From Curtobacterium citreum (GTDB lineage: Bacteria > Actinomycetota > Actinomycetes > Actinomycetales > Microbacteriaceae): a stretch of DNA of 64,000 nucleotides. Positions within the stretch are counted from its first letter, which is position 1; every line of letters begins with the position of its first letter. The stretch spans positions 2,046,001 through 2,110,000 of the forward strand of contig NZ_VFMQ01000001.1 in the NCBI RefSeq assembly GCF_006715175.1, written 5' to 3'. Made by a program: the position numbers and the translations under genes. This document shows, piece by piece, positions 15,542 to 42,830 of the stretch. The notes beneath the pieces were generated by a model. That model did no database searches, was not told the DNA's origin, and was given only the letters and a program-made list of their open reading frames with translations.

Positions 15542-17058
15542 GCGGGCCGGACGCCCCTGCCGGGCTCCTCGAGGCCCTGGACGCCTACGAGCGCGCCCTC
15601 GCCGCCGACGACCTCGCCGCGCTCGACGACGCCTTCGTCCGCTCCCCCACGACCCTGCGCGGCGACGACCGCGGTCTGCTCGTCGGCCACGACGCGATCA
15701 GCGCCTTCCGCGGCGCGCGCGGTGGGGTCGCGAGCCGGACCCTGACCCGGGTCGAGGTCCGACCGCTCGCTGACGACCTCGCCCTGGTCGTCGCCGTGTC
15801 CACCTTCGACGCGGGCGGCTCCGGCCTGCAGACCCAGCTGTGGCGCCGCCAGGACGGCACGTGGCGGATCGAGGCGGCGCACGTCACCGGACGCCCGCGG
15901 GCGTTCGACACCACGGTCTGGCGCGTGCTCGGCGACCCGCTCGTCGCCCCGACCGGGACCGGCCCGCTCGACGGCGAGACCGTCGCCGTGAAGGACCTCT
16001 ACGCCGTCCCCGGGCACCCCGTCGGTGCCGGGAACCCCACGTACCTGCGGGAGTCGGTCCCCGCCGCGACGGCAGCGGCCGCCGTCGCGGCGCTCCTCGC
16101 CGCCGGCGCGTCGATCCGCGGCATCGCGCGGACCGACGAGTTCGCCTACGCGCTCACGGGACGCAACGAACACCACGGCACCCCACCCAACGGGGCGGTC
16201 CCGACCGCCGTGCCGGGAGGATCGTCCAGCGGCTCAGCGTCGGCCGTCCGTTCCGGGACGGCCGGCATCGGACTGGGCACCGACACGGCCGGCTCGATCC
16301 GGGTCCCGGCGTCCTACCAGGGGCTGTGGGGCCTCCGCACGACGCACGGGCTCGTCGACCGGGCCGGACTCCTGCCTCTCGCGCCGTCGTTCGACACCGT
16401 CGGATGGCTGACGCGGGACGCCGACACGCTCCTCCGCGCGCTCGACGCCTCGGTGCCGGACGACATCGCCCGACAGCCGGTCGGCGACCCGGTGGTCCTG
16501 ACGGACCTGCTCGACGCCGCGGACCCGGCGACGCGGGAGGCCTTCCGCGCCGCGGTCGGGCCCGACGTGCCGGAGACCTCCCTCGCCGCGCTCGGACTCC
16601 CCGGACTCGACGAGCTGCGCGAGCTGCTCCGGCTGGTGCAGGGCGCCGAGGCCACGGCCGTGCACGGCGACTGGATCGCCGCACACCCGGGAGCGCTCGG
16701 CGCCGTCGTCGGTGGACGGTTCGCCGCGGCCGCCGCCGCTCCGGCCGACCAGGTGGCGGCGGCGCGCGAGCGGTTCCCCGTCGTCCGGGCCGCGATCCGC
16801 GAGGCGCTGCACTACCGCGTGTTCCTGGCGCCGACCGTGCCCGGCCCGGCTCCCGCGCTCGCCGCCGACGCGGTCGAGCTCGAGCGGGTCCGGACGGCGA
16901 CGACCGCGATGACCGCGCTCGCGAGCGTCGGCGGCCTCCCGTCGGTGAGCGCGCCGGTGCTCACCGTGGACGGCGCGCCCGTCGGGGGGTGCCTGACCGG
17001 CGGGCCGGACACGGACCGCGCCCTGGTGACCGCCGTCGGACGGTGGCTGCCCGCCTGA
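15538..17058 (+). CDS. AtzH-like domain fused to an amidase
   Basis: A 506-aa fusion. Residues 1 to about 125 form an NTF2/SnoaL-like module of the AtzH type (DUF3225), with ALDAYERALAADDLAALDDAF and a closing RIEAAHVTGRP. The rest is an amidase-signature enzyme: the Lys of AVKDLYAV near residue 150, the Ser of PGGSSSGSASAV near residue 228, and the nucleophile region GTDTAGSIRVPAS near residue 250. AtzH proteins partner with AtzE-like amidases in cyanuric-acid and ureido-compound breakdown, so fusion of the two parts is logical. It starts by GTGA overlap with the acetamidase. The exact amide is not deducible. Confidence 0.85.
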   Translation: MSGPDAPAGLLEALDAYERALAADDLAALDDAFVRSPTTLRGDDRGLLVGHDAISAFRGARGGVASRTLTRVEVRPLADDLALVVAVSTFDAGGSGLQTQLWRRQDGTWRIEAAHVTGRPRAFDTTVWRVLGDPLVAPTGTGPLDGETVAVKDLYAVPGHPVGAGNPTYLRESVPAATAAAAVAALLAAGASIRGIARTDEFAYALTGRNEHHGTPPNGAVPTAVPGGSSSGSASAVRSGTAGIGLGTDTAGSIRVPASYQGLWGLRTTHGLVDRAGLLPLAPSFDTVGWLTRDADTLLRALDASVPDDIARQPVGDPVVLTDLLDAADPATREAFRAAVGPDVPETSLAALGLPGLDELRELLRLVQGAEATAVHGDWIAAHPGALGAVVGGRFAAAAAAPADQVAAARERFPVVRAAIREALHYRVFLAPTVPGPAPALAADAVELERVRTATTAMTALASVGGLPSVSAPVLTVDGAPVGGCLTGGPDTDRALVTAVGRWLPA

Positions 17059-19585: not shown

Positions 19586-20413
19586 ATGGACGCCAGGCGG
19601 ACCGACGACGACCCACCGTGGTCCGAACGCCCCCTGCCCGACGGTGGGCGCGCCGCCGCGGTCCCGGGTCGGCACGCCGCCGCTGCCTCGGGTCGGCTCG
19701 CCGCCGCTGACTCGGGTCGGCACGCGTCCGACGACGACCTGGACCGTGTGTTCGGACCGGACACCGCCGCGGTCCGCACGGTCACCGGCGCGCAGCGCCT
19801 GCGACGGGGATCCCTCGTGCTGCTCGGGTTCGCGGTCGCCGGCGTCGTGATCGCGGTCGTGCTGTCGACCATCGTCGGCAGCGTGCAGAACGGCGTCGGC
19901 GGGGTCTTCCCGCAGCCGCAGGCGGCCCTCGACCGGTTCCGCGCCGACGCCAGCGCGGTCCCGGGCGTGCAGACGGTCAAGGACCCGACCGCCGACAAGC
20001 AGGCGTTCGCGGCGTACGACGTGGCCGCGGTCGTCGTGGTCGACACCGCGCTCTCCCCCGGTCAGCAGGTCGACGTGGTCACGCGGCTGAGCGCCGCCGC
20101 TGCCGACGCCGGCGGCAACGGCGTGCGGGTGACGGCGGTCGCGCGGATCGGGACGCTCGACGTCGGGGTGTCCGCGGACGCGGCCGTCAGCCGGCAGCGG
20201 TTCGAGGTCGCCCGCTCCGTCGCGGACGTCGGCGGGGTGGTGGCGGTGCGCTGCTCCTCCGGGCCGGAACGCACGGCGGACGACCCGGCGCTCCAGCGGG
20301 TCGTCGTGGTGACCGGCGGCACCGGAGCAGCGCTCGACGCCGTGGTCGCGACCGCGTCGGAGCGGACGCACGCCGTCTTCCCGGGAGCGACGGTCACCGC
20401 AGCTGACCGCTGA
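19586..20413 (+). CDS. Membrane protein with repeat-bearing cytosolic N-terminus, unknown function
   Basis: A 275-aa protein I do not recognise. Residues 1-50 are polar and include three near-repeats of eight residues (GRHAAAA/SGRLAAAD/SGRHASDD), encoded by a 24-bp tandem repeat. One strong transmembrane helix spans about residues 74-97 (LVLLGFAVAGVVIAVVL). About 175 residues follow, presumably outside, with alternating hydrophobic strands and VVVVTGG near the end. A GGGGG ribosome site is 5 nt before the ATG. TACGCT at 19522-19527 is a possible -10. The layout fits a bitopic envelope protein. Confidence 0.7.
   Translation: MDARRTDDDPPWSERPLPDGGRAAAVPGRHAAAASGRLAAADSGRHASDDDLDRVFGPDTAAVRTVTGAQRLRRGSLVLLGFAVAGVVIAVVLSTIVGSVQNGVGGVFPQPQAALDRFRADASAVPGVQTVKDPTADKQAFAAYDVAAVVVVDTALSPGQQVDVVTRLSAAAADAGGNGVRVTAVARIGTLDVGVSADAAVSRQRFEVARSVADVGGVVAVRCSSGPERTADDPALQRVVVVTGGTGAALDAVVATASERTHAVFPGATVTAADR
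19661..19726 (+). repeat. 24-bp tandem repeat inside a coding region
   Basis: About 2.75 copies of a 24-bp unit, core CTCGGGTCGGCACGCCGCCG. The period is a multiple of three, so the frame is kept and the protein gains eight-residue repeats near its N-terminus. Confidence 0.75.
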
Positions 20414-22574: not shown

Positions 22575-22671
22575 CGAACCGGACCACGCACCGGACCGCA
22601 GCCCACCCCGACGAACCGGACCGCAGCCCACCCAGACGAACCGGACCACGCACCGGACCGCAGCCCGCCCC
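22574..22671. repeat. Three-copy imperfect tandem repeat between divergent genes
   Basis: Unit start ACGAACCGGACC, unit end CGGACCGCAGCCCACCCC. Copies are 22574-22609 (36 bp), 22611-22635 (about 12 bp shorter in the middle) and 22636-22671. They lie in the 266-bp gap between the hydrolase and treS. The rest of this gap holds a half copy of the dispersed repeat at 22681-22700. Confidence 0.8.
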
Positions 22672-37766: not shown

Positions 37767-38963
37767 CGGGTTCTGCGCGAGCACCTCGTCGTAGACCTGC
37801 CGTGTCCGGTGGGCGATCGCGTCCCACGTGAACTCGGACTCCACGCGGAGGCGTCCGGCGCGGCCCATGAGCTTCGCCAGGCCCTCGTCGGCGAGCACCT
37901 CGTCCAGGGTCGCGGCGAGGTCGGCGACGAAGCGGTCGGGGTCGTTCGGGGTGCCCGTGCCGTCCTGCGCCTGGTCGATCGGCACGATGCGCCCGGTCAG
38001 GCCGTCCGCGACGACCTCGGGGATGCCGCCGGTCTTCGTGCCGACGACCGGGATGCCGCACGCCATCGCCTCGAGGTTCACGATGCCGAGCGGCTCGTAG
38101 ATCGAGGGGCAGACGAACACGGTGCCGGACGACAGCACGTTCACGACCTCGCGGTGGGACAGCATCCGGTCGATCCAGACCACGCCCTGCCGCGTCTCGC
38201 GGAGCGACTCGACGAGCCCGGTGACCTCGGCCATGATCTCGGGGGTGTCCGGGGCGCCGGCGCACAGGACGATCTGGACGTCCTCGGGGAGCGCGGCCAC
38301 CGCGCGGAGCAGGTACGGCAGGCCCTTCTGCCGCGTGATCCGGCCGACGAACACCACGGAGCGCTTCGACGGGTCGATGCCGAGCGCGCGGACGGCGTCC
38401 TCGTCGACGGTCGGCTTCCACTCCTCGATGTCGATGCCGTTGTAGACGACCCGTACCGTCGCCGGGTCGATCGACGGGTACGAGCGCAGGATGTCGGCCC
38501 GCATGGCCTTCGACACGGCGATCACGCCGTCGGCGTTCTCGAACGCCTCGCGCTCCATCCAGCTCGAGAGCCGGTAGCCGCCGCCGAGCTGCTCGGCCTT
38601 CCACGGGCGGAGCGGCTCGAGGCTGTGGGCGGTGACCACGTGCGGGATGGCGTGGGTGAGCTGCGCGATCCGTCCGGCGGCGTTCGCGTACCAGGTGTGC
38701 GAGTGCACGAGGTCCGCACCGGCGACGTCGGCCGCGATCGCGACGTCCGTGCCGAGGGCCTGCAGTGCGCCGTTCGCCTGCTCCAGGCCGGCGGGCGTGC
38801 GGTACGCCCAGACATCGGTCTCGTCGCGGAAGGCCCCGAAGGCCCGCACGCGGACGTCCGTGTCCGTCCCCGACCGCAGGGCTGCGGTGAGTTCGGCAAC
38901 GTGGACACCCGCTCCGCCGTAGACCTCCGGCGGATACTCCCTGGTCAGCAGATCGACTCGCAC
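37764..38963 (-). CDS. glgA: Glycogen synthase (GT4, actinobacterial GlgA)
   Basis: A 399-aa GT-B glycosyltransferase predicted to use ADP-glucose for alpha-1,4-glucan (or maltose-1-phosphate) synthesis. It starts [22 protein letters not shown], the actinobacterial GlgA signature with the donor-loop glycines. [15 protein letters not shown] lies in mid-protein, and [20 protein letters not shown] carries the E-x7-E donor site. It is divergent from glgC with a 47-bp gap between starts. TACGTT is 6 nt before the GTG, so it is leaderless. The related mycobacterial enzyme can make maltose-1-phosphate (GlgM activity), which sequence alone cannot separate. Confidence 0.93.
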
Positions 38964-38969
38964 TGGTTC

Positions 38970-38975
38970 AACGTA
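38970..38975 (-). promoter_or_regulatory. Leaderless -10 box, glgA
   Basis: TACGTT on the minus strand, 6 nt before the GTG at 38963. It faces away from the glgC -10, 22 bp apart. Confidence 0.6.
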
Positions 38976-38997
38976 ACGGGTTCGCTGTCCGGACGCC

Positions 38998-39003
38998 TAC
39001 TGT
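38998..39003 (+). promoter_or_regulatory. Leaderless -10 box, glgC
   Basis: TACTGT, 7 nt before the ATG at 39011. An in-frame GTG at 39002 lies inside the box and is unlikely to be the start. Confidence 0.65.
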
Positions 39004-39010
39004 GAACCAC

Positions 39011-40252
39011 ATGGCACCAAAGAAGGTATTCGGCATCGTCCTCGCCGGTGGCGAGGGCAAGCGGCTCATGCCGCTCACCGCCGACCGCGCGAAGCCCGCA
39101 GTCCCGTTCGGCGGGAACTTCCGACTCATCGACTTCGCGCTCTCCAACCTGGTCAACTCCGGGTTGCAGAAGATCGTCGTCCTGACGCAGTACAAGTCGC
39201 ACAGCCTCGACCGCCACGTCGCGGAGACCTGGCGCATGGAGGGCCTCCTCGGCTCGTACGTCGCCTCGGTGCCCGCGCAGCAGCGACTCGGCAAGCGCTG
39301 GTTCGCCGGGTCCGCCGACGCGATCCTGCAGTCGCTCAACCTGCTCCGCGACGAGCGCCCGGACATCGTCGTGGTGGTCGGTGCCGACCACGTGTACCGC
39401 ATGGACTTCTCGCAGATGATCGAGGCCCACATCAATTCCGGCCGCAGTGCCACGGTCGCGGCGATCCGCCAGCCGATCGGCCTCGCCGACCAGTTCGGCG
39501 TGATCCAGGTCGCCGAGGACGACCCGACGAAGATCGACGCGTTCCTCGAGAAGCCCAAGGACGCCGTCGGGCTGGCCGACTCCCCCGGCGAGATCCTCGC
39601 GTCGATGGGCAACTACGTCTTCACCGCCGACGCCCTCGTCGACGCGGTGCTCCGCGACGGGCAGATCGAGACGAGCGCGCACGACATGGGCGGCGACATC
39701 GTCCCGGACTTCGTGTCCCGCGGCGACGCCGGCGTCTACGACCTGCAGCGCAACGACGTGCCCGGCTCGAACGAGCGCGACCGCTTCTACTGGCGCGACG
39801 TGGGGACGATCGACTCGTTCTTCGACGCGCACATGGACCTCATCGCGCCCGTCCCGGTCTTCAACCTGTACAACCAGGACTGGCCGATCTTCAACCAGCA
39901 GACGAACCTGCCGCCGGCGAAGTTCGTCCGTGACGGCAACGGCAACACCGGCTCCACGGTCGACTCGATCGTCTCGCTCGGCTGCCTGCTCTCCGGCGCG
40001 CAGGTCGAGCGCAGCGTCATCGGTCCCTGGTGCGGGATCGACTCCGGCGCGAAGGTCCTCGACTCGATCGTCTTCGAGCGTGCATCCATCGGCGCCGGCG
40101 CGATCGTCAACCACGCGATCCTGGACAAGGACGTCGTCATCGCGCCGGGCGCGCAGGTCGGCGTGGACCGCGAGACCGACGAGGCCCGCGGCTTCACGGT
40201 GACGGAGTCCGGGATCACGGTCGTCGGCAAGGGCGTCCGCGTCGAGGCGTAG
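39011..40252 (+). CDS. glgC: Glucose-1-phosphate adenylyltransferase
   Basis: A 413-aa ADP-glucose pyrophosphorylase, the committing step to glycogen. [23 protein letters not shown] at 13-35 is the pyrophosphorylase signature (read in two parts), GADHVYRMD carries the catalytic Asp, and FLEKPK the sugar-binding Glu-Lys. A left-handed beta-helix closes the C-terminus. The last nine codons and stop are the first part of a 68-bp tandem array that continues past the gene; the protein end itself appears normal for the family. Leaderless from TACTGT. Confidence 0.96.
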
Positions 40253-40730
40253 CGCGAAACGGCGTCCGAGTCCGGACTGCACCCGCCGACGTCGGCAAGG
40301 GCGTCCGCGTCGAGGCGTAGCGCGAAACGGCGTCCGAGTCCGGACTGCACCCGCCGACGTCGGCAAGGGCGTCCGCGTCGAGGCGTAGCGCGAAACGGCG
40401 TCCGAGTCCGGACTGCACCCGCCGACGTCGGCAAGGGCGTCCGCGTCGAGGCGTAGCGCGAAACGGCGTCCGAGTCCGGACTGCACCCGCCGACGTCGGC
40501 AAGGGCGTCCGCGTCGAGGCGTAGCGCGAAACGGCGTCCGAGTCCGGACTGCACCCGCCGACGTCGGCAAGGGCGTCCGCGTCGAGGCGTAGCGCGAAAC
40601 GGCGTCCGAGTCCGGACTGCACCCGCCGACGTCGGCAAGGGCGTCCGCGTCGAGGCGTAGCGCGAAACGGCGTCCGAGTCCGGACTGCACCCGCCGACGT
40701 CGGCAAGGGCGTCCGCGTCGAGGCGTAGCG
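40223..40730. repeat. 68-bp perfect tandem array copied from the glgC 3' end
   Basis: Seven full 68-bp units start at 40223, 40291, 40359, 40427, 40495, 40563 and 40631, plus a 32-bp partial unit at 40699-40730. All are identical by eye. Unit 1 begins inside glgC and contains its last nine codons and TAG; each later unit repeats them. Every unit carries the palindrome AGTCCGGACT, and each unit junction makes GCCGACGTCGGC. Since 68 is not a multiple of 3, no frame repeats unit by unit, which argues against a coding role. Confidence 0.95.
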
Positions 40731-40775
40731 GGGACCCGGCAGGTCACGTCGCCGACGTGGCACCACCGGCCTGGA

Positions 40776-40808
40776 GGCGCGGCTGACGTCACGGACGTCG
40801 GCCGCGCC
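40776..40808 (+). terminator. Hairpin after the glgC array
   Basis: GGCGCGGC pairs with GCCGCGCC, and an inner GACGTC/GACGTC pair closes on ACG, with one T/G mismatch. A likely terminator ahead of serB. Confidence 0.6.
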
Positions 40809-40820
40809 CCCGGCAGTCGG

Positions 40821-40826
40821 TACCGT
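40821..40826 (+). promoter_or_regulatory. Leaderless -10 box, serB
   Basis: TACCGT, 6 nt before the GTG at 40833. Confidence 0.6.
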
Positions 40827-40832
40827 TGGTCC

Positions 40833-41471
40833 GTGCCCCGCTTCCTCGTCGTCCTCGATGCCGATTCCACCCTCCTCGAGGACGAGGTCATCGAGCTCCT
40901 CGCCGACCACGCCGGGACCCGGCCACAGGTGCAGGCGGTGACGGAGCGCGCCATGCGCGGGGAGATCGACTTCGCCGCGAGCCTCCGGGAGCGGGTCGCG
41001 ACCCTGGCGGGCCTCCCGGCCGACGTCTGCACGCGCGCGCAGCAGGCGGTCCGCGTGACGCGGGGCGCCGACGAGCTCGTCCGCGGCGTGCACGCCGCCG
41101 GCGGGACCGTGGGCGTCGTGTCCGGCGGGTTCCACGAGGTCCTCGACCCGTTCGCCGCACGGCTCGGGCTGGACCACTGCCGGGCCAACCGGCTCGAGGT
41201 CGTCGACGGCGCCCTGACCGGCCGGGTGTCCGGCGACGTCGTGGACGCGGCGGCGAAGGCCGAGACCCTGCGGGCGTGGGCCGCCGAGGACGACGTGCCC
41301 CTCTCGCGGACCGTGGCGGTCGGCGACGGCGCGAACGACCTCGTCATGCTCGGCGTCGCGGCGCTGGGCGTGGCGTTCGACGCGAAGCCGCTCGTGCGCG
41401 CACGGGCGGACGTGGCGGTCGTGGACCGCGACCTGTCCGCCGTGCTCGCCACGCTGGGTCTGCGGGGCTGA
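40833..41471 (+). CDS. serB: Phosphoserine phosphatase
   Basis: A 212-aa HAD-family enzyme predicted to release serine from phosphoserine, the last step of serine synthesis. Motif I is VLDADSTLLEDE at 7-18 (nucleophile Asp9 and acid Asp11), motif II is VVSGGF near residue 95, the Lys is in AAAKAETL, and motif IV is GDGANDLVML near residue 164. It lacks the N-terminal ACT domain of larger actinobacterial SerB proteins, which is within family variation. Leaderless GTG. Confidence 0.92.
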   Translation: MPRFLVVLDADSTLLEDEVIELLADHAGTRPQVQAVTERAMRGEIDFAASLRERVATLAGLPADVCTRAQQAVRVTRGADELVRGVHAAGGTVGVVSGGFHEVLDPFAARLGLDHCRANRLEVVDGALTGRVSGDVVDAAAKAETLRAWAAEDDVPLSRTVAVGDGANDLVMLGVAALGVAFDAKPLVRARADVAVVDRDLSAVLATLGLRG

Positions 41472-42368: not shown

Positions 42369-42830
42369 ATGAAGTCGCAGCGCACGAAGTCGCGTACCAC
42401 CGCGATGCAGAGCATCACGACGCTCCCGGACTCCCCGGAGCTGGACCGGGCGCACCGCCTGTCCAAGTACGTCTGGCAGATGGCGTTCCGCGTGGTGTGC
42501 TTCGTCGGCGCCGTCCTCATCTGGTCCGCGTGGCACACGTGGCTCGCGGTCATCCCGATCGTCGCCGCGGCCGTCATCCCCTGGGTCGCCGTGATCCTGG
42601 CGAACGCCGGCAGCCAGGCAGAGAGCGACATCGTGACGCCCGCCGGTGCCATCGAGCTCTACGACGCCGTCGACCCCCGCCTCCGCGAGCAACAGGAGGA
42701 CGCCCGGGCCGAGGCCTACCGCGCCGAGCAGGAGCGCCTGCGCGAACAGGCGCAGCACGCCCAGGAAGAGTGGCAGCGGAACGGCGACCGCTCCCGCGTC
42801 TGGACCGCGCGGTCGAAGGCCCGGCGCTGA
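42369..42830 (+). CDS. DUF3099 membrane protein
   Basis: A 153-aa protein with the DUF3099 core: SITTLPDSPELDRAHRLSKY, then two close transmembrane helices (about residues 42-56 and 60-79). A cytosolic charged helical tail rich in Glu, Gln and Arg follows (residues 99-140). Function unknown. AGAGGAAG precedes the ATG, and TAGGCT near 42336 is a probable -10. It shares a translationally overlapping operon with a 102-aa protein and SURF1, a context common in actinobacteria and suggestive of respiratory membrane assembly. Confidence 0.87.
   Translation: MKSQRTKSRTTAMQSITTLPDSPELDRAHRLSKYVWQMAFRVVCFVGAVLIWSAWHTWLAVIPIVAAAVIPWVAVILANAGSQAESDIVTPAGAIELYDAVDPRLREQQEDARAEAYRAEQERLREQAQHAQEEWQRNGDRSRVWTARSKARR

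Follow-up and report, generated by a model that had tools for sequence, protein, structure and literature searches.

The window, i.e., the whole 64,000-nucleotide stretch of Curtobacterium citreum DNA analyzed here, carries on its plus strand glgC (39011..40252) and serB, encoding phosphoserine phosphatase (40833..41471), which is the next gene after glgC in 64 of 64 genomes. GlgC is a glucose-1-phosphate adenylyltransferase (NF002023, 632 bits vs. a cut-off of 458) with up to 97% identity to Curtobacterium records. The end of glgC opens a tandem array at 40223-40730, consisting of seven identical 68-bp units (40223..40698, plus strand) and the first 32 bp of an eighth. When divided in register starting at 40223, units 1-4 (40223-40290, 40291-40358, 40359-40426, 40427-40494) and units 5-7 (40495-40562, 40563-40630, 40631-40698) are one string, and Tandem Repeats Finder places the array at 40222-40730 with a period of 68, 7.5 copies, 100% matches, no indels, and a score of 1018; the runner-up among the 17 rows for the window scores 117. 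The preliminary description of this DNA, which counted seven identical 68-bp units plus a 32-bp partial copy starting in glgC, is therefore exact. The array starts at a GTC codon, nine codons 5' of the glgC stop, and each unit comprises a 30-bp core (the last nine glgC codons and the stop) and a 38-bp spacer. In unit 1, the core (40223..40252, plus strand) is the final 30 bp of glgC, with codons V G K G V R V E A and stop TAG, and the spacer (40253..40290, plus strand) contains CCGAGTCCGG; the partial eighth copy (40699..40730, plus strand) is a core plus CG, and unique flank follows 40730. Because the first stop in the array (40250-40252, within unit 1) is glgC's own, the GlgC protein is unchanged, as had been stated. 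The glgC-serB spacer with its array measures 580 bp, the maximum among the 64 genomes.

Between the array and serB lies a single-copy hairpin with a 15-bp stem and a 3-nt loop (40776..40808, plus strand); many relatives show, by eye, a similar inverted repeat, and it is a possible candidate for a glgC 3' end signal. An 835-codon antisense ORF on the minus strand (window 38945-41452) spans glgC, the array, and most of serB and is probably an effect of high G+C.

Whole-assembly searches find the full unit at the glgC locus only, with next-best places of 25-30 bp at 83-88%, and the spacer motif occurs elsewhere in this genome only with 2-3 mismatches. The glgC array is the strongest repeat in 464 kb of its own genome examined; in the 400 kb sampled from other regions, the top array with a period of at least 20 scores 230. 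The window also holds tandem repeats at 22586-22647 (25 bp × 2.5, 94%) and 19643-19725 (24 bp × 3.5, 86%). A separate locus of the same genome (L262, 100001-120000) carries, at 16108-16242 and six bases past a predicted stop, a 62-bp unit repeated 2.2 times (89%); by eye, this unit resembles the glgC-serB hairpin.

Bacterial minisatellites, or VNTR loci, are tandem units of tens of bases that are perfect within a genome and differ in number between relatives. The glgC array behaves likewise: its head-to-tail units fall in the 10-100 bp range (68 bp, 7.5 copies), it is perfect within its genome, and unit numbers differ between related genomes (1 to 8 gene-end copies among 64 species-level genomes). 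Unlike minisatellites in general, it repeats the 3' end of a gene, stop codon included, and several species retain this unit along with a drifted but similar spacer. We regard the array as VNTR-like, the gene-end origin of a unit shared by several species being a small twist. The senX3-regX3 spacer of M. tuberculosis, according to the accessible text of PMC4213456, holds three identical 77-bp MIRU units in H37Rv and two 77-bp units plus one of 53 bp in CDC1551; its unit number differs between strains and promoter activity is stated for it, and in these excerpts it is like the glgC array in being actinobacterial, intergenic, tandem, and of similar unit size. However, the MIRU family occupies 41 places in H37Rv (quoted in the accessible part of PMC2734929), whereas the glgC unit is built from the upstream gene's own end and occurs at one place; since own-genome searches for the full unit, which in a MIRU-like family has copies at many places, gave no second place besides glgC, the array is not a dispersed family of that type. 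VNTR3239/ETR-F, in the rnc-fpg1 spacer of M. tuberculosis, has 55 and 79 bp units, against spacers of 6-54 bp in the other mycobacteria shown, and strains differ in its copy number, which is reported to track fpg1 expression (PMC2734929, accessible part); it is restricted to one clade, and the glgC units are similar in that they lengthen a spacer and were seen in one clade. Likeness to a CRISPR array is limited to superficial spacing (30-bp repeats, 38-bp spacers), and we rejected this class, given that all spacers are identical rather than unique and the repeat is a gene end. A literature search on Curtobacterium repeats and glgC, with most subscription papers outside its reach, returned no description naming the array.

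The comparison base comprised 66 Curtobacterium genomes, one per species, with the window's genome as G000; G078 has no glgC match and G022 a 27% match only, so that 64 were counted. Nine of these carry a 58-71 bp tandem duplication with a common start codon, and 55 do not. A gapped pattern of two gene ends found six carriers among the 66 genomes and missed G000, the spacer of which is longer than the pattern allowed; further searches added G074 and G052. The left boundary lies at the same place, the GTSGGCAAGGG codons, in all nine carriers, while unit length is 58 bp in G076, 59 bp in G044 and G079, 60 bp in G006 and G047, 62 bp in G061, 68 bp in G000 and G052, and 71 bp in G074. The 30-bp core is the part repeated in the other carriers too, with small differences between species. 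Outside the genus, no exact repeat of at least 14 bp starts at the glgC end among 80 loci, 18 of them from Curtobacterium or its nearest kin; one locus (L095) shows a repeat of 17-bp period 47 bp past the glgC end. Among 398 genomes of the family, 10 of them Curtobacterium, an exact pattern hit two, both from this genus; the pattern would miss genera using other codons.

Gene-end copies number eight in G000, the longest array seen, four in G006, three in G074 and G052, two in the five other carriers, and one in the 55 non-carriers. Unit number therefore varies between genomes, as had been anticipated, and the uniform number in all relatives that the preliminary description named as evidence against recent slippage is not what the 64 genomes show. 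Its view of a recent expansion also holds: there are 0 differences among the seven units, vs. 86 differences at 1248 glgC sites between G000 and its sister on the tree, G056. This anatomy of perfect units suggests that slippage or unequal recombination expanded the array recently. What must be given up is the idea that the array grew out of the stop region first in this isolate; the duplication is present in other species, so this isolate is not where it began.

Part of the spacer resembles coding sequence of glgC itself. In other Curtobacterium genomes, CCGAGTCCGG recurs among the glgC codons that precede the core, and it is also present in spacers of other carriers; taking the best of 64 genomes, the between-core stretch (28-41 bp) shares 10-17 bp with upstream glgC codons in six of nine carriers. 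The G047 spacer shares 17 bp with the G076 glgC and 16 bp with its own glgC, the G074 spacer shares 16 bp with the G056 glgC, and those of G000, G052, G061, and G006 share 10-11 bp with the best glgC of 64 genomes; on the same basis G044, G079, and G076 reach 7-9 bp, which is the control level. Among 504 control 38-mers, 9 reach 10 bp and 0 reach 16, and in the 55 non-carriers the genome's own spacer reaches 11 bp once and otherwise stays below 10. The longest match to the carrier's own glgC is 8 bp in G000 (GAGTCCGG), G074, and G052, 7 bp in G061, and 4-5 bp in G006, G044, G079, and G076; it is long in G047 only and fails p 0.05 in six of nine carriers. Right-anchored comparison of the spacer with the carrier's own upstream codons is clear for G074 and G047, gives p ~0.01 for G061 and G006, and is not significant for the other five, and local alignment to the same codons gives p 0.025-0.052 in G000, G074, G052, G061, and G047 and no signal in the other four. 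In the six better carriers, the glgC match lies 3-5 bases farther from the core than in the gene. In G047, Tandem Repeats Finder independently calls a 60-bp period with 1.9 copies at 85% and places its start 55 bp ahead of the last base of the stop codon. The two spacers of G052 differ at three positions; thus, decay is also seen.

Across clades, the spacers share a motif of the form CCGAGTCCGG[AG]CT[GC]C[AG]CCC[AG]-like, which with at most one mismatch occurs at 22 places in 11 of 66 genomes (3 control matches). Sixteen of these places are at the glgC arrays of six carriers and six are single places elsewhere; the pattern misses carriers G044, G079, and G076. Based on these comparisons, we infer that the first duplicated segment comprised ~19 codons and the stop, and that the noncoding copies drifted in their first half, leaving nine codons still identical. 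The earlier statement that the array repeats the last nine codons thus describes what is identical now, while the original duplicated part was probably longer. Decayed remnants of the array in non-carriers are not convincing: of the 55 spacers, 4 reach p ≤ 0.02 in a match to the glgC end of the same genome, and a reversed control scored equal or better in 26 of the 55. An inserted mobile motif was rejected after the spacer motif was searched for in the window's own genome, the 66 genus genomes, phages, plasmids, and IMG/VR; six weak places inspected in the own genome are matches of 17-31 bp only, with no glgC end.

On a tree of 64 rows built from glgC without its end plus serB, the carriers are scattered and require at least seven changes; the alternative of a single gain entails 20 losses with the root that we chose at G039. 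The carriers' last common ancestor covers 51 of the 64 rows. Clustering of carriers on this tree is weak (7 changes vs. a shuffled mean of 8.6, with 25 of 500 shuffles as low), and we do not rely on it.

Homologous recombination may have brought the array from other carriers into those of a TAG-ending clade of 24 rows, a serious but tentative possibility that is compatible with our preferred reading of an old, unstable minisatellite. G061, G006, and G047 all have GCC TGA at the end of the first copy; their last copy closes with GCG TAG in G061 and G006 and with GCA TAA in G047, and by eye it adjoins the flank of non-carrier neighbors in all three; 20 of 21 non-carriers in the clade end GCG TAG. 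An array-bearing ancestor followed by clean deletion in the neighbors would give the same pattern as import into the carriers. G060, which lacks the array, and G061, which has it, form the closest pair; 14 of their 19 glgC differences are concentrated in a single stretch of 250 bp that ends 75 bp short of the stop codon (0 of 20,000 permutations). This cluster near the array, in a pair picked from eight looked at, probably reflects recombination in one of the two genomes; however, G006/G002 and G047/G001 show no apparent cluster of glgC differences by eye, no donor was found, and G061 is nearest to G060 in every segment tested, with one tie. Spacer types also cut across the tree, G061 being closer to G000 and G074 (20/21) than to G006 (17/21) and G047 (15/21) of its own clade, which hints at transfer between species. 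Since deletion and import both fit and spacer types depart from the tree, a single origin with many losses is likely, and transfer is a serious addition to it.

We do not claim stop-codon swapping as a speciality of glgC, as other neighbor genes vary too. TAG is the stop of glgC in 35 of 64 genomes and of serB in 8 of 63 (13 vs. 6 tree changes); across a control set of up to 18 loci, TAG ends glgA in 12/17, an SDR gene in 12/16, an ABC gene in 6/17, glgC in 10/18, serB in 1/18, and the gene at 42369 in 0/16. Carrier state and TGA are not significantly associated in a paired test (median p 0.25).

Separate new duplications in each species, at a place prone to breakage or slippage, are a doubtful alternative to one old duplication. 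Repeats near predicted stops are not rare in the window's genome (21 of 158 tandem-repeat rows, glgC array included), and other short repeats occur at or near the glgC stop in G001, G050, G064, G077, and G023. Yet new duplications should carry each species' own upstream codons, whereas changed bases are common to spacers across clades, as are the 3-5 extra bases of the six carriers; in addition, repeats at serB ends are nearly as frequent (9 genomes vs. 10 for glgC), so glgC does not stand out as a special hot spot for short repeats. The non-array repeats at or just past the glgC stop measure 16 bp in G050 (L208), 25 bp in G064 (L230), 13 bp in G001 (L222), 7 bp in G023 (L239), and 21 bp in G077 (L238), unlike the 58-71 bp unit. 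At the serB stop region, 9 of 64 Curtobacterium loci have tandem repeats of 5-33 bp (e.g., 33 bp × 2.5 in G067), and gene-end repeats seem common in Curtobacterium. The glgC match of G044 (L256) is split in two, with a short 16/24 bp tandem repeat inside the gene near the break, reflecting either an assembly error or a disrupted gene.

A function of the array is not supported, and we consider it improbable that the array is regulatory, with repeated RNA structures or protein sites tuning glgC or serB. Similar spacers do occur in distant species, and a hand-aligned 21-base spacer motif has a mean identity of 0.74 vs. 0.65 at glgC four-fold sites, a small difference in a motif that partly mirrors coding sequence. 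Folding is strong in G044 (z −3.7) and G079 (z −2.8); however, the window's 54-nt stretch of spacer plus core folds no better than shuffles (z −0.66), G061 is as ordinary (−0.77), and G076 is worse than the shuffle mean (+0.98). The earlier suggestion that the array multiplies an RNA hairpin therefore does not stand, the strong hairpin being single-copy and beyond the array. A conserved hairpin per unit is likewise rejected as a general property: spacer-core pairing is found in G044 (p 0.001) and G079 (p 0.0075) only, with shuffle p of 0.06-0.91 in the other seven carriers. Searches of 40100-40900 for sigma-70-type promoters and T-tailed terminators gave no match, and 55 of 64 genomes do without the array, although the accessible text of PMC2734929 reports an intergenic repeat length that tracks downstream expression in M. 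tuberculosis.

Two explanations fare worst. It is very unlikely that an integrative element targeting and regenerating the glgC 3' end left the array as a scar or uses it as an attachment site: such elements generally leave a repeated gene end on both sides, and the first-copy stop differs in some carriers, but serB adjoins glgC in every one of the 64 genomes with a spacer of at most 580 bp, no element or integrase lies between the repeated ends in these spacers, and several spacers resemble glgC. Phage (15) and plasmid (35; 20 among the matches listed) records gave short matches, none covering 80% of the query, and the core pattern has no exact match in IMG/VR. An assembly error in unit number is equally remote: perfect repeats are generally hard to count without long reads, but the window's genome is a single contig of 3.61 Mb and other assemblies contain arrays of this sort, including five that consist of 1 or 2 contigs (G006, G047, G052, G061, and G079).

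We therefore favor, with good though not full confidence, a variable-copy minisatellite derived from the glgC 3' end that is old, unstable, lost, and re-expanded. Early in the genus, ~56-60 bp (~19 terminal codons, the stop, and a few bases beyond it) would have been tandemly duplicated. The first half of the later copies would have drifted by substitution and a small insertion because copies after the first are noncoding, while the last nine codons and stop would have been kept alike within a genome by replication slippage or unequal recombination, the copies being exchanged or re-copied with one of them under coding selection. Exchanges between copies would also produce clean deletions of the array in which a single intact gene end is left, and most species would for this reason lack it; in the window's species, recent growth would have led to seven full units. 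Slippage or unequal recombination as the mechanism and a single origin are parts of this scheme that are inferred rather than observed, as is near-neutrality, which is most likely.

Several points weigh against this scheme: spacer matches to the carrier's own glgC are long in G047 only, those of G044, G079, and G076 stay at control level even with the best of 64 genomes, 20 losses for one gain are costly, and spacer types depart from the gene tree. Plain neutrality sits uneasily with an unstable repeat that several clades have retained and with a motif whose identity slightly exceeds that of four-fold sites. Short, close direct repeats are expected to be lost quickly if neutral; thus, long persistence of the array is poorly explained. 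The duplicated glgC end could be a tiny element with its own stop codon, kept or passed between Curtobacterium species by recombination at gene-end repeats, in which copy number would tune the glgC 3' end or the glgC-serB junction and so prevent rapid loss; we think this unlikely.

With the variable-copy minisatellite as the preferred reading, the genus presents at one place the stages of a single copy, two drifted copies, and a perfect long array, through which gain, drift, loss, and re-expansion can be traced. The array is a candidate strain-typing marker for Curtobacterium, and it would serve as a simple adjustable switch if its copy number altered glycogen synthesis.
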